From contig NZ_PQVF01000007.1 in the NCBI RefSeq assembly GCF_002920915.1, positions 186,001-250,000 on the forward strand: DNA of 64,000 bases, written 5' to 3'. The notes beneath the pieces were generated by a model that saw only the letters and a program-made list of their open reading frames with translations, ran no database searches and was not told the DNA's origin. This document shows, in pieces, positions 2,906-17,689 of the stretch; position 1 is the first letter of the stretch, and every line of letters starts with the position of its first letter. The translations under genes and the position numbers were made by a program. Source of the DNA: Solitalea longa (lineage in GTDB: Bacteria > Bacteroidota > Bacteroidia > Sphingobacteriales > Sphingobacteriaceae).

Positions 2906-3964
2906 ATGAATGAACATCAACTTTATATAAAGCGCTGTATTGAGCTGGCTTTAAATGGCTTAGGCAATGTAAGCCCCAACCCGATGGTGGGAGCCGTAAT
3001 AGTTTTCGACGGAAAAATTATTGGTGAAGGATATCATAAAAAATATGGAGAAGCACATGCCGAAGTTAATGCTGTTAATTCGGTTTTAAACAACTATTCC
3101 AATGCCGAAGAACTGTTAAAGCAATCGACCATTTATGTAAGCCTTGAGCCCTGTTCGCATCATGGCAAAACTCCCCCTTGCGCCGATCTGATAATAAAAC
3201 ATAAAATCCCTAAGGTGGTCGTTGGCTGTGTTGATCCTTTTGAACGCGTGAGTGGTAAAGGTATTGAACGTTTAAAGGCTGCCGGAATTGAAGTTATAAG
3301 TGGCGTTTTGGAAAAGGAATGTCTTGATCTCAACAAACGCTTCATTACCCAACATACCCAAAAAAGACCCTACATCATTTTAAAGTGGGCACAAACAGCC
3401 GATGGCAACTTTGCTCCGGCAAACGGTTCTCAGCATTGGATAACTGGACCAAGGGCAAAACAATTGGTGCACAAGTGGCGAACAGAAGAAGATGCAATTT
3501 TAATTGGTTCAAGAACAGCTTTAATTGATAACCCTCAATTAACTGCAAGAGAATGGGATGGTAAAAACCCGGTACGGGTTGTAGTTGACCAAAAACTTAA
3601 ACTACCAAGCACTTTAAACATTTTTGACCAATCGGCTAAAACCATTGTGTATAATGAGTTGAAAACGGATGTTAATGACAATATTTACTACAACTCGTTG
3701 GAATTCAACGGGTATCTACCCCAATTCATGATGTACCAGTTGTACTTACAAGACATTCAATCAGTTATAATTGAAGGTGGTGCCAACTTGCTTAATCAAT
3801 TCATCAGTTTTGGCTTATGGGACGAAGCCCGAATCTTCACTTCAAAAAACTCAGCTTCCAACGAAACTGACTGGATCAAAGCTCCTGTTATAAATGGTAA
3901 AATTATTTCGATGGAGAAGCTTGATAATGATGAATTAACAATTATTGAGAATCAAAAGTCATAA
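2906..3964 (+). CDS. ribD: Bifunctional riboflavin biosynthesis deaminase/reductase RibD
   Basis: 352 aa. RibD performs the second and third steps of riboflavin synthesis: deamination of the GTP-derived pyrimidine, then NADPH reduction of the ribosyl side chain. The N-terminal zinc cytidine-deaminase-like domain (~1-145) has H51-A-E53 and the PCxxxxxxPPC-type site E81-P-C83 ... C92 that bind zinc and provide the catalytic Glu. The C-terminal reductase domain (~150-350) starts at RPYIILKWAQTADGNFAP and has VIIEGGANLLNQFI. Both domains look intact and length is normal. No other rib genes are beside it, so the pathway is scattered. The start follows the -7 box by only 8 nt. Confidence 0.94.
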   Translation: MNEHQLYIKRCIELALNGLGNVSPNPMVGAVIVFDGKIIGEGYHKKYGEAHAEVNAVNSVLNNYSNAEELLKQSTIYVSLEPCSHHGKTPPCADLIIKHKIPKVVVGCVDPFERVSGKGIERLKAAGIEVISGVLEKECLDLNKRFITQHTQKRPYIILKWAQTADGNFAPANGSQHWITGPRAKQLVHKWRTEEDAILIGSRTALIDNPQLTAREWDGKNPVRVVVDQKLKLPSTLNIFDQSAKTIVYNELKTDVNDNIYYNSLEFNGYLPQFMMYQLYLQDIQSVIIEGGANLLNQFISFGLWDEARIFTSKNSASNETDWIKAPVINGKIISMEKLDNDELTIIENQKS

Positions 3965-4093
3965 GTCCGAAACAAGTTTTCTGATCGTAATCATTGAGCT
4001 AATTTTTATTGTGTAACTCGGTGCCAATCTGTGGTTAAAACGGTTACAATTTAACAACACAACAATTTACCATTATACCAATCAATCGCTTTC

Positions 4094-4708
4094 ATGCTAT
4101 TTGAAGATACATATCAAACTATAAACCACCCAGCCGAAGGAATATTCAGGGACAAGGGAAGCAAATTCATTGCTTATGCTTTTCCTGTAAAAACTGAAGA
4201 CGAGGTCAAGGAACATTTATTGAAACTCAAAAAAGAGCATCCTACCGCCCGTCATCATTGTTATGCATGGCGTTTTGGAATGGACAGGAATGTTTTCAGG
4301 GTAAACGACGATGGGGAACCTTCAGGAACTGCCGGAAGACCTATTTTAAATGTTTTGCTTTCTAAAGATGTTACCAATATTGTGGTATTTGTAGTACGTT
4401 ATTTTGGTGGCACGTTGTTAGGAGTTCCGGGTTTGATCAATGCCTATAAATCAGCCACTCTCGATGCGCTTGAAAACGCTCAAATCATCCAGAAAACTAT
4501 CAACGATATTTATCGGATTGATTTTGAATATCTTCAAATGAATGATGTGATGAAAGCATTAAAGGACGATGCCGTAGCAATGTTAAACCAACAGTTTGAT
4601 AATGCATGTTCGATTGAATTTGAACTGAAAAAATCAGAAATAAACAGGATCATCGGAAAACTGGAAGACATCGACAGTGTTAAAATTCAATACTTAAGAA
4701 CTGTCTGA
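4094..4708 (+). CDS. YigZ/IMPACT family protein (UPF0029)
   Basis: 204 aa. The N-terminal ~125 residues show the family signature: FRDKGSKFIAYAFPV, ARHHCYAWRFG, NDDGEPSGTAGRPIL and VVRYFGGTLLGVPGLINAY. The C-terminal part is the ferredoxin-like DUF1949 region. YigZ/IMPACT proteins share the ribosomal-protein-S5-like fold; eukaryotic IMPACT binds the translation regulator GCN1, while the bacterial role is not settled. It is followed by a nucleoside phosphorylase gene after 45 nt, possibly co-transcribed. Confidence 0.88.
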   Translation: MLFEDTYQTINHPAEGIFRDKGSKFIAYAFPVKTEDEVKEHLLKLKKEHPTARHHCYAWRFGMDRNVFRVNDDGEPSGTAGRPILNVLLSKDVTNIVVFVVRYFGGTLLGVPGLINAYKSATLDALENAQIIQKTINDIYRIDFEYLQMNDVMKALKDDAVAMLNQQFDNACSIEFELKKSEINRIIGKLEDIDSVKIQYLRTV

Positions 4709-4753
4709 TAAACGAAGGCTTAATTGTAAATTTACTTTCCAATCAATTTTTAA

Positions 4754-5617
4754 ATGATCATTTCAGAAACCGATTTAATTTTAAACCCCGACGGTTCGGT
4801 ATACCATTTAAATCTTTTACCCGCTGAAATTGCCGAAACTATTATTACCGTGGGTGATCCGGATCGGGTGGCTGAAGTATCAAAACATTTCGACCGGATT
4901 GAAGTTAAAAAGCAAAAAAGAGAGTTCATAACACATACCGGTTATGTTGGAAGTAAACGTATTTCGGTAATTTCAACAGGCATCGGTACTGATAATATCG
5001 ATATTGTTTTCAATGAGTTAGATGCATTAGTTAATGTAAACATTGAAACCAGAACCGAAAAAGATCATAAAACTTCATTGGAGATCATTCGTATCGGCAC
5101 CTCCGGTAGTTTACAAAGCCACATTGCAATAGACAGTCTATTGTTCAGCTCTTTCGGAATTGGATTTGACACGTTGATGAACTTTTATGAGTTCGAGAAT
5201 TCGAACAATGAACTGATGATTTTGGATGCACTAAAAGAGCAATTACCAGCATTCAATCCTTATGTATTTGCTGCAGACAGCTCATTAAAAAAGAAGCTCG
5301 CCTTTGACATGCTTGAAGGAATGACTGTAACCTGCAGTGGTTTTTACGGACCACAGGGTCGAAGTGTTCGCGTAAAAAATCAGCATCCCAACTTTATTCA
5401 TCAGCTTAAAAATTTTAATTATAATGGTTTTCTTATTACCAACCTTGAAATGGAAACGGCAGGAATTTTGGGCATGGCACATGTTTTGGGTCATAAAGCA
5501 TGCTCTATAAATGCAATACTAGCGAGTCGTTTAGAGCAAAAGTTTAGCACCAACCCCAATGCTATTATTGAAAAAGCGATTAAACTGGTACTTGAACGCC
5601 TGCAAACTTCAAACTAA
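4754..5617 (+). CDS. Nucleoside phosphorylase (uridine-phosphorylase-like)
   Basis: 287 aa, PNP/UDP superfamily. The N-terminal region VGDPDRVAEVSKHFD provides the phosphate-binding GDPxR loop; STGIGTDNIDIVFNELDAL and RIGTSGSL are the conserved phosphate/ribose elements; ITNLEMETAGILGMAHVLGH carries the Met-Glu ribose-binding motif. The family cleaves nucleosides with phosphate to base plus ribose-1-phosphate for salvage. Uridine phosphorylase is the closest guess from the GTSGSL and EMET motifs, but base specificity is not certain. The protein is cytoplasmic, and the MDR oxidoreductase gene follows 38 nt downstream. Confidence 0.85.
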   Translation: MIISETDLILNPDGSVYHLNLLPAEIAETIITVGDPDRVAEVSKHFDRIEVKKQKREFITHTGYVGSKRISVISTGIGTDNIDIVFNELDALVNVNIETRTEKDHKTSLEIIRIGTSGSLQSHIAIDSLLFSSFGIGFDTLMNFYEFENSNNELMILDALKEQLPAFNPYVFAADSSLKKKLAFDMLEGMTVTCSGFYGPQGRSVRVKNQHPNFIHQLKNFNYNGFLITNLEMETAGILGMAHVLGHKACSINAILASRLEQKFSTNPNAIIEKAIKLVLERLQTSN

Positions 5618-8864: not shown

Positions 8865-11800
8865 ATGAATAAACTACTTACCTTTTTTTGTTGTTTGCTA
8901 TTTTTTGTTAAAACATCTTACTCTCAAAATTCCCGCCCGCAAGTATTTCCGGCAAATTCAAGGGATGTAATTGAAGAGGGCATTAAACTGTATGATGAAG
9001 GCAAATTTGACGACGCCTTATCCAAGCTCAAACAGGTTTCAAAAAGCGACACCAATTATGTGTGGTCGTTATTCGAAACAGCATTGACCTTTAATGCCAA
9101 AGAGCAGTATGATCAGGTAATTAAGCTTTGTATTGAAGGTATTGATCATCATACCAATAATGATCTGAGTTTTTATTGCCTGTTGGGTAGTGCTTACGAT
9201 AACAGTAATCAAACAGACAAGTCGTTAGCCACTTTTGATGAAGCCATAACAAAATTCCCGCAATCCTATCGCCCATACTTCGAAAAGGCCGGCACTTATT
9301 TCAACAAGAAAAATTACGTTGAAGCGGAAAAGCTATACGAAAAATCTATTTCGTTAAACTTTATGCATTTCGGTAGCCATTATAATTTGGCCCGCATTTA
9401 TGCTGCAAATGGCTATATCACCCAAGCTGCTTTATGCTATCAAACTGCCATTTTAATGGATTCACAAAGCAAACGCTCGTATAATGCTTTGCTTGAGCTC
9501 GAAAAAGTGCTGACTGTTTTCAACATTTCCATGGTTGACTCCATAAAAGAATTGAAGATTGACCGAACGCCTTTTGAAGAAATTGAAATGCTATTACAGT
9601 CAAATGCTGCCCTCCAAAAATCATATGAACTTAAATCAGACTTGGATTACAAGTGCTTACGCCAATCGCAGGTTATTCTCGAAAAGCTTGGAGATGTAGA
9701 AGGTAAAGGGTTTGTATTTGATTATTATGTTCCACTTTATAAAGAACTTTGGAAAAACAATTTCTTCCAGCAATTCACCTATTATCAAACCGCTTCCATG
9801 AACAAAAAAGCATATGCATACGTGAATAAGCCTGAAGGTAAAGTAAAAGACTTTTTTGATTGGGTAGTAAAACGATCTAGGGAACTTCGGGATTTACATT
9901 TTAACAAAGATGGAAAGAACTTTTCTACTGAATACTTTAACAACGGTGCTTTAAGTGCTGTTGCCGAGGTGAAAAATGATAAGTTATCAGGGCCTTACCT
10001 CTCCTATTATTCCTCAGGTTACCCTGCAGGAAAAGGCAATTTTAACAATGGAGAAAAAGTAGGTGAATGGACCTATTATGATGAAAACGGCAAGCTTTCA
10101 AAAACAGAAAACCATACTGATTCTAAGAACTTTACGTTCAAAAGTTTTTATGATAACGGCTTTATTGCTCAGGAAGGTGCTTTTGAAAATGATAATTACA
10201 CAGGTTTAATCAAAAATTATTCAAAAAGCGGAGCTCTTTCTCGTGAGCTTACTGCCGTTAATAATCAAATTGAAGGTAAAATGACCAACTTCTATGATTT
10301 TGGCAATAAGAGAAGCGAAGTAAGTTATACTAACGGACAACGGGAAGGTATTTACACCAATTATCACCTCAATGGAGCTATTTTTAATACCGGTACATAT
10401 AAAAATGATAAAGAAACAGGGCCTTATAAAGAGTACTACATTTCAGGTAAAATTAAGGTTGAAGGGAATATGGAAAGCGATGAATATGCCGGCGACTGGA
10501 AATGGTACAATGAAAATGGTACTCTATCTAAAACAGGTTCCTATAAAAACGGTAAAGAAACCGGTGTATGGATATACTATGATGAGGATGGCAAGAAAAA
10601 CTATGAAAACAATTTTATTGCCGGCCAATTAGACGGAATATCCAATGAGATCAAAAATGATAAGATCTACAATCAATTCATTTATAAAAACAGTAAGCTG
10701 AAATCATATACTTCTTTTCTTAACAACTATACCGTTAACTGTTCAGGAAAAACGAATGTCACCATCTATGATGAAAACGGTAAAAAAAATCGTGAGGGAG
10801 TTATGAATGATGGAGAAATGGAAGGCTTATGGCGTTATTATAACATACAAGGAAGTTTAGCAATTGAAATAAACTATTCCAAAGGTCAGAAAGAAGGCAG
10901 TTACAAATATTATCATCCTAACGGAAAGGTTAAGCTTGAAGGTACATATGCAAAGGATAGCGACAATGGCCTTTGCTCCTATTACTTTATCACCGGCATT
11001 TTGCAGGCAACCGGAATGTACGTAAATGGCAACCGCGAAGGCGAGTGGTTTACCTATCAAGGAAATGGAAAACTAAAAACCAAGGAATATTATAATGAGG
11101 GTAAAACCACAGGCATTTCCGAAAATTACCGGAGCGATGGAACCCTGGAGATTTCCACAGAAACGAGCAATGATTATGTAACCAGTTATTCATTGTTTGA
11201 CAATACCGAAAAAAAATACGAAACGGTTAAACTAAAAACAGGTAATGGCAAGTTCCAACCACACCATTTTAACGGCAAGATTTATTGCGACGCTGAATTT
11301 GCGAAAGGCAATAGGGTTGGGAAATCATCTTATTACTACACCAATGGCCAGGTTTCGCGAATTGAAAATTACAATTACCATATAATTCATGGACCTATGT
11401 TGGCTTATTCTCCTGATGGAAAACTAATTTTCAGCGGGAATTATAAATTTGGTAAACAGGATAGTCTTTTCACTTATTTCAATCATTTTACCGGTTTAAA
11501 AGAATCTACCTTTTTGTATAAGAACAATACTGAAAATGGTTTGTCTACCTGGTACAATCATAATGGCAGCATTTCTTCAACCTGTGATTATAAAGACGGA
11601 GAAAGAGATGGATATGCGATCTATTTTGATGAGAATGGTAAAAATGTGAGAATTCGATTCAAGTACTATCAAGGTACAGTAGTTTCTTATAGCTATTTGA
11701 ATAGTAAAGGAGAATTCGTTCCTGAAATTCCAATTAATAAAGACAAAATAGAGGTTAAGGCCTACTATAGCTCAGGAGTTCTTTCCTATCAGGCTGTTTA

Positions 11801-12113
11801 CGAAAATGGATTACGCCAGGATAAGCTGATCTTTTATAATTGGGACGGAAAAATTGGGGAAGAAGAATTTTATATTGACGGAGAGCGAAACGGTTTAAAT
11901 AAAGTTTACTATCCAAATGGCGTACTTCAGCAATCAACAGATTACAGATGGGATGAGCGAAATGGCTTATCAAAATATTATAATGAAAAAGGCGAATTGA
12001 TAGGTGAAGAGGTTTATGAAATGGGCCTTTTAAACGGTGATAGAAAAAAGCTTGCAGAAGACGGCAAAACTATGAAAACAACAAAATTTGCTTACGGAGA
12101 GCCTGTATTATGA
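8865..12113 (+). CDS. Giant exported TPR + YwqK/MORN-type repeat protein
   Basis: 1082 aa. A signal peptide ends at KTSYSQ (~residue 21). Residues ~30-215 are tetratricopeptide repeats (GIKLYDEGKFDDALSKL; SYRPYFEKAGTYFNKKNYVEA). From ~350 to the end there are about 25 tandem units of ~22 aa with the core YY-x-NG-x-L ... Y-x-x-G-x-x-x-G-x-W, the YwqK/MORN_2 repeat (for example YYDENGKL, YYHPNGKV, YYPNGVL). Such repeats stack as a long beta-hairpin solenoid and usually bind a partner or surface; the name 'antitoxin' for YwqK is historical and no toxin is adjacent. The stop overlaps the next start as ATGA, so it is translationally coupled to the transglutaminase. Confidence 0.85.
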   Translation: MNKLLTFFCCLLFFVKTSYSQNSRPQVFPANSRDVIEEGIKLYDEGKFDDALSKLKQVSKSDTNYVWSLFETALTFNAKEQYDQVIKLCIEGIDHHTNNDLSFYCLLGSAYDNSNQTDKSLATFDEAITKFPQSYRPYFEKAGTYFNKKNYVEAEKLYEKSISLNFMHFGSHYNLARIYAANGYITQAALCYQTAILMDSQSKRSYNALLELEKVLTVFNISMVDSIKELKIDRTPFEEIEMLLQSNAALQKSYELKSDLDYKCLRQSQVILEKLGDVEGKGFVFDYYVPLYKELWKNNFFQQFTYYQTASMNKKAYAYVNKPEGKVKDFFDWVVKRSRELRDLHFNKDGKNFSTEYFNNGALSAVAEVKNDKLSGPYLSYYSSGYPAGKGNFNNGEKVGEWTYYDENGKLSKTENHTDSKNFTFKSFYDNGFIAQEGAFENDNYTGLIKNYSKSGALSRELTAVNNQIEGKMTNFYDFGNKRSEVSYTNGQREGIYTNYHLNGAIFNTGTYKNDKETGPYKEYYISGKIKVEGNMESDEYAGDWKWYNENGTLSKTGSYKNGKETGVWIYYDEDGKKNYENNFIAGQLDGISNEIKNDKIYNQFIYKNSKLKSYTSFLNNYTVNCSGKTNVTIYDENGKKNREGVMNDGEMEGLWRYYNIQGSLAIEINYSKGQKEGSYKYYHPNGKVKLEGTYAKDSDNGLCSYYFITGILQATGMYVNGNREGEWFTYQGNGKLKTKEYYNEGKTTGISENYRSDGTLEISTETSNDYVTSYSLFDNTEKKYETVKLKTGNGKFQPHHFNGKIYCDAEFAKGNRVGKSSYYYTNGQVSRIENYNYHIIHGPMLAYSPDGKLIFSGNYKFGKQDSLFTYFNHFTGLKESTFLYKNNTENGLSTWYNHNGSISSTCDYKDGERDGYAIYFDENGKNVRIRFKYYQGTVVSYSYLNSKGEFVPEIPINKDKIEVKAYYSSGVLSYQAVYENGLRQDKLIFYNWDGKIGEEEFYIDGERNGLNKVYYPNGVLQQSTDYRWDERNGLSKYYNEKGELIGEEVYEMGLLNGDRKKLAEDGKTMKTTKFAYGEPVL

Positions 12114-14029
12114 GAAAACTGATCGTTTTAATTCTGCTACTAGAGGCAGGTTTTGTGAATGGGCAGTCGTTGTATGATTATGAAGCACTGAAAAAAACAT
12201 ACCCTTCAGAGGATGTGGTGGTGCTTAATAAAAAGGAAGAGGTTAAACTGGAAGTGATCAAAGGGAAAATAGAGATTGAATCTACTCATTACTTCGAAGT
12301 AATGTTTATGAATGACGGGGCACCTCGTTTTGCAAAAAACGCTGTTGGTTATTCTGAGTATTTTCAAGACATTTTCAACCTTGAAGTTTATAGCCTTCTA
12401 CCCGACGGCGCCGGTAACTATAAAAAAATTGAGGTTAAGAACATTAAAACAACCGATAACCGAAGTAATTCGGTGTTTTTCGATGACCAGAAACAGAAAG
12501 AGTTTGTTTTTGAAGGTGTAAAAAAAGGTGCTATTGGGGTTTATACCTACAAGGAAAAAATAAAGGACCCTCACCTGTTTGGCAGTTTTTTGTTCAAGCA
12601 ATATATTCCCATTTTAAACGCGGAGTATTCGGTTTCTGTTCCTGCTGAGGTGACACTTACTTATAAAACATTTGGCGATCAGTCGCTGGTAAGTTTTTCG
12701 GAGAAAAAAAGCCGAAGCAGAACACAGTATAGCTGGAAAGGAAAAAATTTACCCAAGGTGCCTTATGAAGCAGATGCCCCCAGTTTACAGTATTACGCCC
12801 CGCAAGTATTAACGCTTATTAATTCATATCAGGGTAAAGATGGAAAAGTAGAAGTGTTAAAAGATGTTCATCAATTGTACAATTGGTATGTGGGTTTAAT
12901 AAAAGATGTGAACCAGAAACCGGGCGATGAACTTAAAACCTTGGTCGATTCTTTGGTCAAAGGCAAATCGGAACTGGATAAGATCAAAAGCATTTATTAT
13001 TGGGTTCAGGACAATATTAAATACATAGCATTTGAAGACGGTTTGGGAGGCTTTGTTCCACGCGAAGCCACCTCGGTAGTGAATAAGCGTTTTGGCGATT
13101 GTAAAGATATGGCCGGAACTATTACCACCATGTTAAATGTTGCCGGAATAAAGGCCCACCCTACCTGGATCGGCACCCGTGATATTCCATTTAGATATGA
13201 AGAAAACCCTTCGCCACGAACCGACAATCACATGATCTCATCGATTAACTATAAGGGCAAATGGTACTTTCTAGATGGCACAAACACCTGGCTCGACTTT
13301 GGGATTTCAGCCGAAGCCATTCAGGGTAAAGAAGCGCTGATTATGATCGATCAGGATAATTATGAAATTGTTCAGGTTCCGGTTGAAGATAAAAAGGTGA
13401 ATTATGAAAAAGACAGCATCAACCTTAAACTTACTCCTACAGGTGTTAGCGGAAAAGGGAAAATTGAATTTGGAGGCTTAAAGAAAACTGACATTCTCAA
13501 TCATTATTTCCGCTCAACAGATAAAGAAAGGTTGGATTATTTACAGACCCTTTGTTCAAAAGGAAGTAATAAATGTAAGGTTGCTAATATTAACACTGGT
13601 AATTTCAATAAACGAGATATTCCGGCTGTGGTTAATTATGATTTTACCATTGATGACTATGTTAGAACTATAGACAATGAGATCATGATCAACCCTTGTT
13701 TAAATAAACGATTGTCAAAAGGTATGATCGATATGGAAAACAAAAAACTGGATTACGAAGAAGACTACCATTTTATATCCCAGCAGGTTTTATCAATTGA
13801 AATCCCAAAAGATTATATGATCAGCTATCTGCCAGGTAATGCTTCATTAAAAAAAGAACTGTTTGGCTATAACATTTCGTATGCTGTTTCTGGCGAAAGC
13901 GTGAAGGTTGTAATCGATATCAATGTTGATTACCTTTTATTAAAGCCTGAAAAATTTGGAGAATGGAACGAAATGATCTCGACTTTAAATGAATCTTATA
14001 ACGAATTGATCACCTTTAAGAAAATATAG
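12110..14029 (+). CDS. Exported DUF3857 transglutaminase-like protein, catalytic triad intact
   Basis: 639 aa with signal peptide ending GFVNGQ (~residue 19). DUF3857 occupies roughly residues 45-215, followed by a transglutaminase-core domain (~285-400) and a C-terminal beta region. The papain-like triad is complete: C331 in RFGDCKDMA, H374 in DNHMISS, D389 in FLDGTN. Family members may act as proteases, amidases or crosslinkers; the substrate here is unknown. It overlaps the YwqK-repeat gene by 4 nt and is 5 nt before its degenerate paralogue, so the three are one operon and probably act together in the periplasm or at the surface. Confidence 0.85.
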   Translation: MRKLIVLILLLEAGFVNGQSLYDYEALKKTYPSEDVVVLNKKEEVKLEVIKGKIEIESTHYFEVMFMNDGAPRFAKNAVGYSEYFQDIFNLEVYSLLPDGAGNYKKIEVKNIKTTDNRSNSVFFDDQKQKEFVFEGVKKGAIGVYTYKEKIKDPHLFGSFLFKQYIPILNAEYSVSVPAEVTLTYKTFGDQSLVSFSEKKSRSRTQYSWKGKNLPKVPYEADAPSLQYYAPQVLTLINSYQGKDGKVEVLKDVHQLYNWYVGLIKDVNQKPGDELKTLVDSLVKGKSELDKIKSIYYWVQDNIKYIAFEDGLGGFVPREATSVVNKRFGDCKDMAGTITTMLNVAGIKAHPTWIGTRDIPFRYEENPSPRTDNHMISSINYKGKWYFLDGTNTWLDFGISAEAIQGKEALIMIDQDNYEIVQVPVEDKKVNYEKDSINLKLTPTGVSGKGKIEFGGLKKTDILNHYFRSTDKERLDYLQTLCSKGSNKCKVANINTGNFNKRDIPAVVNYDFTIDDYVRTIDNEIMINPCLNKRLSKGMIDMENKKLDYEEDYHFISQQVLSIEIPKDYMISYLPGNASLKKELFGYNISYAVSGESVKVVIDINVDYLLLKPEKFGEWNEMISTLNESYNELITFKKI

Positions 14030-14034
14030 TACTT

Positions 14035-15993
14035 ATGAAAAAGATCACTTGGATCCTATTTTCGACCCTTTTATTAACGGCTAATTGTTTTGCCCAAAAA
14101 ATGGCCTACATAAACGAAATCGGTCCGATTTCGAACAAACTAAATACCTTAACACCACAGGAAATGAAAGAACCTGCGGTGGTATTGTCAGAAAAGGTAT
14201 TGGTTGAATTCGCTTTTGAGGCTAAAGAACTTTACAAATACCAGTTTTGTAAGCGCAGGGTTCACCTGAATGAAAATACGGCAATTGAGCAGTTTAACCG
14301 TATTTACCTGCCGATTGAAAACAATAATGAGATTGTAGCATTAAAAGCGGTGGCCATTGGCAAAAATGGACAGCAAAAAGAAGTTGGAAAAGATCACGTA
14401 AAACAAATTGAAGAAGAAGGTCGCCAATACAGCATTTTAGCCATTGAAGGACTTGAAGAAGGCGGTGAACTTGAGTATTATTATTGCCTTAAACAAAACC
14501 TTCGTTTATTCGGATCCGAAAGAATTCAAAAAAGCACCTTTATCCGTAACTATCAATTAAGCATTATCAGCCCTGACCATTTAATTTGGGAAGGCAAAAT
14601 TTATAATGCCAGCAAGCCTTTTATCGCCACCATTGATTCTGTGGAGAAAAAGCGAACGATAACCGTTGAACTTAATAATATTGAACAGGCTTACGATGAA
14701 AAATATTCGGCCTCTGATGCTAACCTGATCAGGGCTGAATACAAAATTGCTTACAACAAAGCTAAAAGCGACGACCGTATGTTTACCTGGGCTCAGGCTG
14801 GAAAACGATTTTATGAGATCTACCACGAAGGTCAGCAAGAATCGGAGTCAGTTATCAGCCGTTTGGCAAACGAATTAGGCTTAAAAGGAAAATCCGAAGA
14901 AGATGCTGCCAGAACAATTGAAAATTACATTAAAACCAATATCGTAATTCGTCAAAACTCCGAACCAGCCTCTATTAAAGATGTTTTAACCCGTAAATAC
15001 GGCACTAAGGAAAATGTTTACCAGTTGTATATCTTTTTGTTCGACTATTTAAATATTCCTAATCAAATGGTTTTATGTTCAAATCGCTTTGAGAAAAAGT
15101 TTGATAAGGATTTTGATACCTGGAACTTTTTGGACGATGTGCTATTTTACCTACCGGTTTCTAAAAGGTACATTAGTCCCGACGATATAACTTCCCGCTT
15201 TGGAGCCGCTCCTGATGTATTTGCGGGTTCAGATGCTTTGTTTATCAAAACAACCACTTTAGGAGGTCAAAAAACCGGCATAGCACTTACCAAGAAAATT
15301 GAAGAATTAACCAATACCAATAATAATGATGACATGTGGTTCAATGTTGATTTTTCGGAGAATATGTCACAAATTAAAGCCACTTACAAACGAATGCTGG
15401 ACGGCTATGCTGCTACTGAGATTCGACCATTTTACTTCCTTGCAAATGAAGAAGATCGCAAAATGGCACTGAATAACATTATAAAAGCCTACACGGTTAA
15501 TGATGCTGAGATCAAAAATCCGGTGGTTGAAAACTTTAATTTAAATACAGAAGAAATTAATAAGCCATTTACCATAACTGCTGATATAAACAGCAAAAGT
15601 GTGATTGAAAAAGCCGGCAATAAGATCATTTTAAAGGTGGGTGAATTGATCGGTCCTCAGGTCCAAATGTATAATGAAAAACCGCGTCAAAACCCGATAG
15701 AAATTCAGTTCCCCCACGCTTATCACCGCATAATTACGGTTAATATCCCTAAAGGTTATACGGTAAAAGGTTTGGATGCATTAAAGTTCAACCTGGTTTA
15801 TAAAAACGAAGAGCTGTCAACAATGGGTTTTGTATCGGCCTACACACTTGAAAACAATGTATTGAAGATCGATATCAACGAGTATTATAACAATATAACG
15901 TATCCTAAATCTGCCTACGCAGATTTTGTAAAGATCATTAATGCATCAGCAGATTTTAACAAAATTTCGATTGTTCTCGAAAAAGGCATTTAA
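14035..15993 (+). CDS. Exported DUF3857 protein with degenerate transglutaminase domain
   Basis: 652 aa, signal peptide ending NCFAQ. Overall size and order match the preceding gene: a DUF3857-like beta domain, a helical transglutaminase-like region (~260-400) and a C-terminal beta region. In the segment equivalent to RFGDCKDMA it reads KYGTKENVY, so the catalytic Cys is replaced around K325, and the His and Asp sites are not recognisable (FDTWNFLDD). I infer a pseudoenzyme partner of the upstream transglutaminase, arising from an old duplication. It is the last gene of the operon; a perfect 9-bp terminator stem follows. Confidence 0.75.
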   Translation: MKKITWILFSTLLLTANCFAQKMAYINEIGPISNKLNTLTPQEMKEPAVVLSEKVLVEFAFEAKELYKYQFCKRRVHLNENTAIEQFNRIYLPIENNNEIVALKAVAIGKNGQQKEVGKDHVKQIEEEGRQYSILAIEGLEEGGELEYYYCLKQNLRLFGSERIQKSTFIRNYQLSIISPDHLIWEGKIYNASKPFIATIDSVEKKRTITVELNNIEQAYDEKYSASDANLIRAEYKIAYNKAKSDDRMFTWAQAGKRFYEIYHEGQQESESVISRLANELGLKGKSEEDAARTIENYIKTNIVIRQNSEPASIKDVLTRKYGTKENVYQLYIFLFDYLNIPNQMVLCSNRFEKKFDKDFDTWNFLDDVLFYLPVSKRYISPDDITSRFGAAPDVFAGSDALFIKTTTLGGQKTGIALTKKIEELTNTNNNDDMWFNVDFSENMSQIKATYKRMLDGYAATEIRPFYFLANEEDRKMALNNIIKAYTVNDAEIKNPVVENFNLNTEEINKPFTITADINSKSVIEKAGNKIILKVGELIGPQVQMYNEKPRQNPIEIQFPHAYHRIITVNIPKGYTVKGLDALKFNLVYKNEELSTMGFVSAYTLENNVLKIDINEYYNNITYPKSAYADFVKIINASADFNKISIVLEKGI

Positions 15994-16021
15994 ACTTATT
16001 GCCCAAACAACTATATTAACG

Positions 16022-16052
16022 AAGCAGAACTTTATGTTCTGCTTTTGTTTTT
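16022..16052 (+). terminator. Rho-independent terminator of the YwqK/transglutaminase operon
   Basis: Perfect 9-bp stem AAGCAGAAC (16022-16030) with GTTCTGCTT (16036-16044), 5-nt loop, then a T-rich tail. It separates the operon from the L,D-transpeptidase gene. Confidence 0.8.
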
Positions 16053-16066
16053 ATTGCTCAGTTCAT

Positions 16067-17689
16067 ATGAAAAAGCTTAACTATCTAATCGTTGTCTTGC
16101 TGATTGCTGCTATTTTTTCCGCATGTATAAATACAAACGGGTCGAAGCATGATAATACTCCTAAAGACAGCTTAATGGATGTTATTAAATGGAATAAAAG
16201 CATTATTGGTAATTACAGTCCGCAAACCTCGCTTCGTTTTGACAGCACTGAAATTGACGGGTTTATAAAAACATATCCAAACCTGGCGGTTTATGCAGAC
16301 GACATTCATAAATTTTATAGTAATAGAAAGTTTGCTTATGCATGGTTTGATAAAAAGGGTTTGATTGAACAGGCAGGGAACTTAAATAGCCGCATACAGC
16401 ACCTTGGCGATGAAGGCTTATCTGCAAAGGTACCTTACAGTGAAAAACTCGATACCCTGATGCAGGCCTTAAACGGGAATAAAAAAGATATTACCACAGA
16501 GTTGATGCTTACTGCCAACTACTTTGCGTTTTCTAAAATTGCCTGGCAGGGAAATTTAAATGATAAAGATATCCAATCGATGGACTGGTTCTTACCCCGC
16601 AAAAAGTTAGATTACCAAAAATACCTGGAAGAAATAGTAACTGAACCCAAATCTAAATTACTTAGTAAAGATCCTGCCTTCAGACAATATGAGTTATTGA
16701 AAGGTAATTTAAAAAGGTATAATGATTTAGCGGTTAATGAAAAATGGGAACCGATAAAACTGGAAAAGAAATCGTTAAAGGTGGATGATTCGACATTATC
16801 AGTTAAACAGATAAGACATCGTTTAATGCTGCTTGGGGATCTTAAAACTGATAATGAAAGTGAAAAGTATGATGAAGAACTATTAACAGCTGTAAAACAG
16901 TTTCAATTACGACACGGCCTTACAGCTGACGGAACAATTGGCCCCGGATTTATGTCGAACTTAAATATCAGCCCAAAACAACGCTTTCAACAGATACTTG
17001 TAAATATTGAGCGTAGCCGCTGGGTACCTGAAAAGATAAGCGGAACACACCTTATTGTCAACATACCATCCTTTTCACTCTATGCCTTTCGTTCCGATAC
17101 GCTTGATTGGAGCTGCAATGTGGTAGTTGGCAAAGCTCTTAATCAAACGGTTGTTTTTAACGGTGAACTTAAATACATCGTATTCAGCCCGTACTGGAAT
17201 GTACCTCCAAGCATTGTTCGCAAAGAGATCTTACCATATATGAGATCGAACGCCAATTATTTGGCAAAGCACAATATGGAAATTACCGGCTACCAGGGAA
17301 AATTACCGGTGATACGTCAATTACCGGGAACCTCCAATTCATTAGGACTTGTAAAATTCCTCTTCCCTAACTCATTTAACATCTATTTACATGATACGCC
17401 CTCGAAATCTTTATTTACGGAAGATCAGCGAGCATTTAGTCATGGCTGCGTAAGAGTTGGGGAACCTAAAAAGCTTGCAGCTTATTTGTTGCGCAATGAC
17501 AGCACCTGGACCGATGCCAAAATAACTGCGGCAATGAACGCAGGAAAAGAACGAACCATTACATTAAAGCAAACAGTGCCGGTTTATATCGGTTATTTTA
17601 CCGCATATGTAGATCATAATGGTTTATTAAACTTTAGAAAAGATATTTACAACCGAGATAAACGTTTAGAGGAGATGTTGTATAAATAG
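16067..17689 (+). CDS. L,D-transpeptidase lipoprotein (YcbB/LdtD-like)
   Basis: 540 aa from the ATG of MKKLNYLIVVLLIAAIFSAC; the frame stays open upstream, but that extension crosses the preceding gene and terminator. A lipobox (IFSAC) anchors the mature enzyme at a membrane. Domains: an N-terminal YcbB-type scaffold (~45-235), a peptidoglycan-binding domain (~245-310, LSVKQIRHRLMLLGDL and LRHGLTADGTIGP), and a YkuD catalytic domain (~330-500) with SHGCVRVGEP holding H459 and nucleophile C461. These enzymes form 3-3 meso-DAP crosslinks in peptidoglycan or attach proteins to it. The catalytic set is intact. It is co-directional with the upstream operon but separated by a terminator. Confidence 0.9.
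   Translation: MKKLNYLIVVLLIAAIFSACINTNGSKHDNTPKDSLMDVIKWNKSIIGNYSPQTSLRFDSTEIDGFIKTYPNLAVYADDIHKFYSNRKFAYAWFDKKGLIEQAGNLNSRIQHLGDEGLSAKVPYSEKLDTLMQALNGNKKDITTELMLTANYFAFSKIAWQGNLNDKDIQSMDWFLPRKKLDYQKYLEEIVTEPKSKLLSKDPAFRQYELLKGNLKRYNDLAVNEKWEPIKLEKKSLKVDDSTLSVKQIRHRLMLLGDLKTDNESEKYDEELLTAVKQFQLRHGLTADGTIGPGFMSNLNISPKQRFQQILVNIERSRWVPEKISGTHLIVNIPSFSLYAFRSDTLDWSCNVVVGKALNQTVVFNGELKYIVFSPYWNVPPSIVRKEILPYMRSNANYLAKHNMEITGYQGKLPVIRQLPGTSNSLGLVKFLFPNSFNIYLHDTPSKSLFTEDQRAFSHGCVRVGEPKKLAAYLLRNDSTWTDAKITAAMNAGKERTITLKQTVPVYIGYFTAYVDHNGLLNFRKDIYNRDKRLEEMLYK

Follow-up and report, generated by a model that had tools for sequence, protein, structure and literature searches.

The subject of this analysis is a three-gene operon in a window of 64,000 nucleotides from Solitalea longa (assembly GCF_002920915.1, contig NZ_PQVF01000007.1, positions 186,001 to 250,000 of the forward strand; coordinates below count from the first letter of this window, and all features lie on its + strand). 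The three open reading frames (ORFs), which we call P1 (8865..12113; 1082 amino acids, aa), P2 (12110..14029; 639 aa), and P3 (14035..15993; 652 aa), code for proteins predicted to be exported: P1 with TPRs and MORN_2/YwqK repeats, P2 with a DUF3857 domain, a transglutaminase core and an intact catalytic triad, and P3 with the same fold and, judging by its sequence, without catalytic residues. We propose, with moderate confidence, that P2 and P3 form an exported enzyme/pseudoenzyme complex for which P1 would serve as a fixed-length adaptor. The original prediction, made from the letters of the window, had read the locus as a repeat protein coupled to a pair of transglutaminases, and its three ORFs, the ATGA overlap between P1 and P2, and the 5-nt spacing between P2 and P3 were found as described.

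The comparison of P2 and P3 used 80 loci, chosen as the best 80 among 102 relatives matching either of two peptide patterns among 84,980 species genomes; this set is uneven, and several of its genomes also occur in the order and phylum samples described below. P2 of the window matches PF12969 (DUF3857) with 63.5 bits and PF01841 (Transglut_core) with 33.8 bits (cut-off 23), and carries the triad Cys331-His374-Asp389 (codons at 13100..13102, which is TGT, 13229-13231, and 13274-13276). Counting matches that span more than 90% of the model (P2 from 60 of the 80 loci, P3 from 79, plus the window's own protein in each case), the triad was complete in 61/61 full-length P2 proteins. P3 of the window matches PF01841 exactly at the cut-off (23.0 bits) and gave no match to PF12969, which was found in 73 of 75 aligned P3 orthologues at E ≤ 0.01. 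The catalytic Cys was present at the aligned position in none of the 80 P3 proteins, and in the window its place is taken by Lys325 (15007..15009; alignment GDCKD/GTKEN). In no column of the P3 alignment does Cys reach a majority of the rows, and in the joint alignment His stood at the His position in 3/80 and Asp at the Asp position in 13/80. A structure model of P3, built with 75 sequences, had a mean predicted local distance difference test (pLDDT) score of 92.5 and superposed on 3kd4 (Parabacteroides distasonis BDI_1141) with Z 23.6 over 474 aligned residues (root-mean-square deviation, rmsd, 4.0), the next-best structure reaching Z 11.9 over 177 residues. Because the Cys is missing from all 80 proteins and the model superposes on 3kd4, P3 is by sequence a pseudoenzyme, that is, a paralogue that has kept the fold and lost the catalytic residues. 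Thus, only one member of the presumed transglutaminase pair can be a transglutaminase.

Conservation is distributed differently in the two proteins. The maximum for P2 lies at its active site (3.64 bits), and the transglutaminase domain averages 2.80 bits versus 2.20 and 2.24 for its flanks. In P3, conservation peaks in the C-terminal domain, with about 3.0 bits for residues 521-560 and 3.27 for 641-652, versus 2.32 at the former active site; residues 521-580 (15595..15774) and 621-652 are among its most conserved parts. This C-terminal part is also the segment that links P3 to the partners in a second family of pairs, here called family b. Family b comprises ten loci (L031-L040) with live/dead pairs of about 626 and 740 aa, P1 being present in none of them; at one locus (L031), two dead partners follow each other, and six loci adjoin a gene that we take to be alaS-like from its N-terminus.

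The combination of a live and a dead member was a general feature of tandem DUF3857-transglutaminase clusters. PF12969 was found in 39 of 99 sampled genomes of the phylum, in which we surveyed every listed DUF3857 locus except the window's own operon, accepting ORFs of at least 400 aa that scored above 40 bits against a model built from tandem members and the window's P2 and P3, a filter that diverged partners can escape. In all 34 tandem clusters obtained (23 pairs and 11 triples, including three of the P2/P3 subfamily, L122, L126, and L131), exactly one member had both the Cys and the His and the other one or two lacked the Cys; related clusters are non-independent trials, and no probability is attached to this count. 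A further pair, L140, read by eye, fits the same rule. Six of the live genes that stood singly code for chains of about 1250 aa, and the four of these that were scanned all carry TPRs together with DUF3857 and a transglutaminase-like domain, which supports the idea that a TPR protein acts with this type of enzyme. The genome of S. longa itself contains a second DUF3857-transglutaminase cluster (L144; contig C2, about 152.5-158.6 kb) of three genes, one live and two dead, the latter having S and A in place of the Cys; the search across the order found no P1 there.

P2 and P3 occur together. In the order sample of 151 genomes, seven contained a full-length P3, and these seven were also the ones with a P2 of this subfamily. 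P1 was present in six of them, being split on two contigs in G045 and divided into two ORFs in G112, and was absent in G120. Among 345 genomes of the phylum, P3 (at least 215 bits) and P2 (at least 400 bits) were found in the same 12, and full-length P1 (more than 500 bits) in seven, all among these 12 and all adjacent to P2 and P3; none of the 345 genomes had a full-length P1 without P2 and P3. P2 and P3 stood without P1 alongside in G265, G273, G486, and G170, and in G397 the P1 match was limited to the TPR part. In the set of 80 loci, 47 have a full-length P1 and its neighbors in the order P1-P2-P3; P2 is broken in two of these (L072 and L115), which leaves 45 with three full-length proteins. 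P1 is split or cut in eight others (L044, L063, L064, L075, L087, L092, L104, and L105) and short in one (L119), and in nine the P2-P3 pair lies too close to the contig end for P1 to be seen (L065, L068, L070, L074, L085, L088, L101, L111, and L113). There was room upstream yet no P1 in four loci (L066, L073, L079, and L107), from genomes with partial P1-like matches or none, P3 was locally alone in nine (L045-L053), and it lay at a contig end in two (L043 and L076). The records that carry P1, many of them metagenome assemblies, are labeled as Sphingobacteriaceae, Chitinophagaceae, Fulvivirgaceae, Hymenobacteraceae, Flavobacteriaceae, Marinilabiliales, and others. The arrangement of P1 beside P2 and P3 therefore extends beyond close relatives (47/80 loci, 7/345 genomes), on which the original prediction had staked its reading, and the absence of the repeat protein from orthologous operons, which it had named as contrary evidence, was found in a minority of lineages.

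The Runella clade separates the three genes. At nine loci of this clade, P3 has neither P1 nor P2 nearby, yet in all seven genomes tested a full-length P2 was present (597-622 bits), without a P2 within 7 kb of P3 on the flanks covered and without a P1 at E ≤ 1e-20. In four genomes P2 lies on another contig, and in two it is separated from P3 by about 150 and 250 kb, distances that were read from contig names, lengths, and coordinates, the same-contig placement in these two resting on equal contig size. The triad was intact in all six P2 proteins retrieved (L132-L135, L137, and L138), and the P3 proteins of these genomes lack the Cys. Because this clade keeps P2 and P3 apart from each other and without P1, P2 and P3 are the predicted core of the system and P1 is an optional part. 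A role of P1 as an obligatory substrate is consequently not supported, with P2 and P3 lacking it in 5 of the 12 phylum carriers and in 7/7 tested Runella-clade genomes, one genome being common to both groups. On a tree of P3, the presence of P1 requires at least five changes, three of them forced by well-supported branches (labels available for 73 of 83 rows of a quick tree with some long branches), and the P2 and P3 distances are correlated with r 0.97.

P1 consists of three parts. The TPR domain (residues 32-217; 8958..9515) was recognized by Pfam at residues ~39-210 (TPR_2, 52.2 bits), forms helices at 32-217 in the structure model, and resembles known TPR folds (MamA, Z 17.4; OGT, Z 17.8), these matches concerning the TPR part and not covering the array. 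It is followed by a conserved helical linker without a family name (residues 235-347; 9567..9905) and by a beta-repeat array with a 24-residue period (residues 352-1076; 9918..12092). The array matches MORN_2 (PF07661), which we take to be the YwqK repeat, with 117.7 bits (cut-off 29.6), and nine stretches each pass E ≤ 1 alone. Our own repeat model, built from the window's P1 and three orthologues, found 24 stretches under a permissive threshold, of which 21 scored above zero, and the structure model (48 sequences; pLDDT 89.2, predicted template modeling score 0.75), a TPR superhelix, helical linker, and beta meander, has near-continuous beta strands over the array with ~30 slots of 24 residues; the original count of about 25 YwqK-type repeats was thus a sound one. 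Proteins of about 350 aa whose similarity to P1 is confined to its TPR half, with 26% identity over residues 32-340, are present in the same genome (contig C12:19654-20601) and in several relatives, sometimes in tandem.

The length of the array hardly varies. P1 orthologues from the 47 loci measure 1076-1169 aa (median 1098), and in these and the window's P1, 48 proteins that match the model over more than 90% of its length, the repeat region is 724-739 aa long with a standard deviation of 3.4 aa, a spread smaller than one 24-residue unit. This constancy holds among orthologues that share 23-29% identity with P1 of the window, Solitalea agri, at 69%, being the exception. Because its units average 20% identity to each other (highest 50%), the array looks old and not homogenized. 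Unit-by-unit orthology between species is weak, with identities of 0.24-0.31 at the same position versus 0.18-0.21 elsewhere, and 36 of 182 units have their best match on the diagonal (~7 expected). A near-constant repeat region is the opposite of a variable recognition array, and so the self-recognition role that had been considered for P1 is not supported. It also argues against a toxin-immunity or kin-recognition locus of the YwqJ-YwqK kind, as do the signal-peptide-like N-terminus of P1 and its end-to-end conservation. Such a locus has a precedent in ywqJ-ywqK of Bacillus subtilis, a putative toxin-antitoxin pair (PMC8321402), but no toxin family is among the Pfam matches of P1-P3, no neighbor other than the three genes is widely common, and PADLOC gave no match, so that we regard it as highly improbable. 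The YwqJ-YwqK module as such was rejected, there being no toxin gene alongside and P2 and P3 being the only widely common neighbors of P1. A phage-defense system was likewise discarded (no PADLOC match for P1-P3 at E ≤ 0.01), as was a LIC20035 adhesin, the NF033566 score of 112.8 bits being below the cut-off of 250.

The shape of the array is a separate matter. The array alone gave no sequence match to solved structures, and Foldseek returned Rhs core shells as best matches (E 3.9e-16), together with teneurins. P1 could therefore be modeled as a closed shell of this type that encloses or processes cargo instead of a rod or ruler, and a constant number of repeats would likewise follow from such a shape. 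However, global superposition on these shells is poor (TM 0.09, rmsd about 31), and the sequence family is MORN_2, with MORN1 structures matched at E about 1e-6 and TMt 0.4-0.5; a shell is rather unlikely in our view. The array shares the local geometry of beta-hairpin repeats with both MORN1 of apicomplexans and trypanosomes and the Rhs/teneurin shells, without global superposition. LIC20035/YwqK proteins have PF07661 repeats as well; P1 differs from them by its N-terminal TPR domain and by a near-constant array tied to an enzyme pair.

All three proteins had been predicted to carry signal peptides, and signal-peptide-like N-termini, called by a simple hydropathy rule and not by a trained predictor, were indeed found in 46/48 P1, 61/61 P2, and 79/80 P3 proteins, the window's included. 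Past the N-terminal segment, hydropathy (19-residue mean) peaks at 1.0-1.1 in the window proteins and reaches at most 1.61 in any orthologue, and this analysis revealed no clear internal membrane helix in either. Lipobox-like sites are few (P1 3/48, P2 3/61, and P3 8/80), and no C-terminal family of the type IX secretion system matched P1-P3 at E ≤ 1 in NCBIfam, where we assume such models to be included. The simplest inference from these features is a soluble, periplasmic location of P1-P3. The original prediction had envisaged that the transglutaminase crosslinks P1, as substrate or scaffold, into a surface assembly. The placement of the genes in one operon would fit this, and TgpA, a periplasmic transglutaminase-fold protein, is active as a transglutaminase in vitro (PMC3507681); however, several lineages retain P2 and P3 while having no P1, the catalytic Cys is missing from P3, and no surface-export signal was found in P1-P3 by NCBIfam, hydropathy, or lipobox scan. 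We therefore see little chance that this model is correct.

The closest structural counterpart is 3kd4, which represents the DUF3857-transglutaminase proteins. P2 matches both domains of this class and the whole P3 model superposes on it, but 3kd4 is a single chain, whereas the operon places a live member next to a dead one and a repeat protein. LapG-type proteases of the Lap system offer an analogy, in that an exported transglutaminase-fold cysteine enzyme likewise operates with non-catalytic partner proteins. P2 might then be a protease whose substrate is presented or gated by P3 and P1, much as LapD-LapG controls adhesins; this would be one specific form of the enzyme/pseudoenzyme proposal. 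The existence of partner-controlled periplasmic proteases of this fold (LapG) lends some plausibility to this, as does the title 'putative protease' of 3kd4, the sole solved relative found by sequence. On the other hand, P2 has no LapG-family Pfam match, no LapD or LapA neighbor was recognized, the partner is a dead paralogue, and no other gene is widely common nearby, so that no adhesin or receptor is indicated; a protease of this kind is possible but rather doubtful. TgpA of Pseudomonas aeruginosa likewise has a transglutaminase-fold domain in the periplasm, but it is a membrane protein, and its abstract mentions no dead partner (PMC3507681).

Returning to the enzyme/pseudoenzyme proposal, the three proteins would constitute an exported, probably periplasmic, three-subunit system. 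P2 would be the catalyst, a putative transglutaminase-fold cysteine enzyme acting as protease, amidase, or transamidase. P3 would be its non-catalytic partner, serving as heteromer scaffold, regulator, or substrate holder, probably via the conserved C-terminal domain. P1, whose TPR head would bind proteins and whose long beta-repeat body has a fixed length, may dock the P2-P3 complex to a substrate or envelope structure or space it relative to these. We favor a live/dead complex because P2 and P3 occur in the same 12 of 345 genomes and are both kept when non-adjacent, and because of the 34/34 tandem rule, the 3kd4-like fold of P3, and its shifted conservation. P1 is included because its full-length form is adjacent to P2-P3 in 7/7 phylum genomes, and its role as a fixed-length adaptor is proposed because of the small standard deviation of the repeat region. 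Enzyme-pseudoenzyme partnerships are known in principle. A broader and distinctly tentative extension is that exported tandem DUF3857-transglutaminase enzymes throughout the Bacteroidota combine a live member with one or two dead ones in a hetero-complex, which one branch mounts on a TPR/MORN_2 beta-rod of fixed length, a molecular ruler across the periplasm; with an assumed rise per repeat, the ~30 repeats of P1 would be of the order of 30 nm long if straight.

Several observations weigh against this proposal. The score thresholds in the phylum sample were chosen after the scores had been seen, and the best two to three candidates per genome were scored, which makes the absences soft. Seven further genomes have P2 relatives that score lower, at 254-328 bits, and six of them show a C-terminal P3-like match of 42-60 bits (G272 does not). 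P1 is missing from the 5 phylum carriers mentioned above. Both the co-occurrence of P2 and P3 and the r of 0.97 can stem from shared descent and linkage, and the non-adjacent case is a single clade. The fixed length of P1 is broken in Plebeiobacterium marinum (L119), where a 419-aa P1 with the TPR part and a couple of repeats (3777-5036 of that locus) lies directly 5' of P2/P3. Finally, the survey also contained single genes, 17 live and 4 dead, so that pairing is not absolute; two of the dead singles occur in genomes that also hold a cluster, and two (L170 and L171) in genomes without another DUF3857 hit.

P3 of S. longa appears to have an ancestry that differs from that of its family. The nearest named relative is S. 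agri, with a P3 that is 78% identical, and P3 of Solitalea groups with Cytophagales/Spirosomataceae, away from the other Sphingobacteriaceae. Holding the Sphingobacteriaceae together was rejected in the approximately unbiased (AU) test with p-AU 1.9e-34 (30 rows of a quick tree, with the group chosen for testing once an initial tree was known). The second Solitalea genome of the order sample (G150) gave no P3 match. These trees suggest either horizontal gain or old paralogy, and the closeness to Cytophagales favors horizontal gain.

Downstream of P3, a terminator-like hairpin at 16021..16045, recognized by consensus only, closes the operon; it is the region's best such site, with 10 pairs and a T-rich tail, and agrees with the terminator predicted at about 16022, although the scan gave 10 sites versus 7.5 ± 3.0 in shuffled sequences, so that the hairpin alone is weak evidence. 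The gene that follows (16067-17689, with ATG 16067 as the most likely start) codes for an L,D-transpeptidase with YkuD, PG_binding_1, and Scaffold domains in Pfam. A functional tie of this enzyme to the operon had been considered but is not supported: the enzyme is in none of the 22 largest neighbor clusters and thus common to at most 5/81 loci. Among these 22, only the P1-P3 clusters contain genes of the window, and the next clusters reach at most 8/81 loci, mostly from one lineage. In S. agri (L042), a 546-aa gene of no assigned identity also lies 3' of the operon.

As far as the literature searched is concerned, which left most subscription journals and bioRxiv outside its coverage, the best-ranked results contained no report about DUF3857 function, pseudo-transglutaminase partners, or YwqK arrays exported in Bacteroidota, nor was a paper on 3kd4 found. 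DUF3857 appears in one of the papers covered, solely as a neighbor gene of lolA (PMC6341742), and another contains a remark on transglutaminase-like peptidases in a different system (PMC7159879). Neither a rule of one live and otherwise dead members for exported transglutaminase-fold proteins, nor the P2-P3 pair or the trio, was reported in the searched literature, in keeping with the earlier view of the locus as an undescribed system. The operon offers a testable handle on the widespread DUF3857 family and on a repeat protein whose array is near-constant across distant lineages, and, if the broader extension is true, it would represent an undescribed class of envelope-modifying machine.

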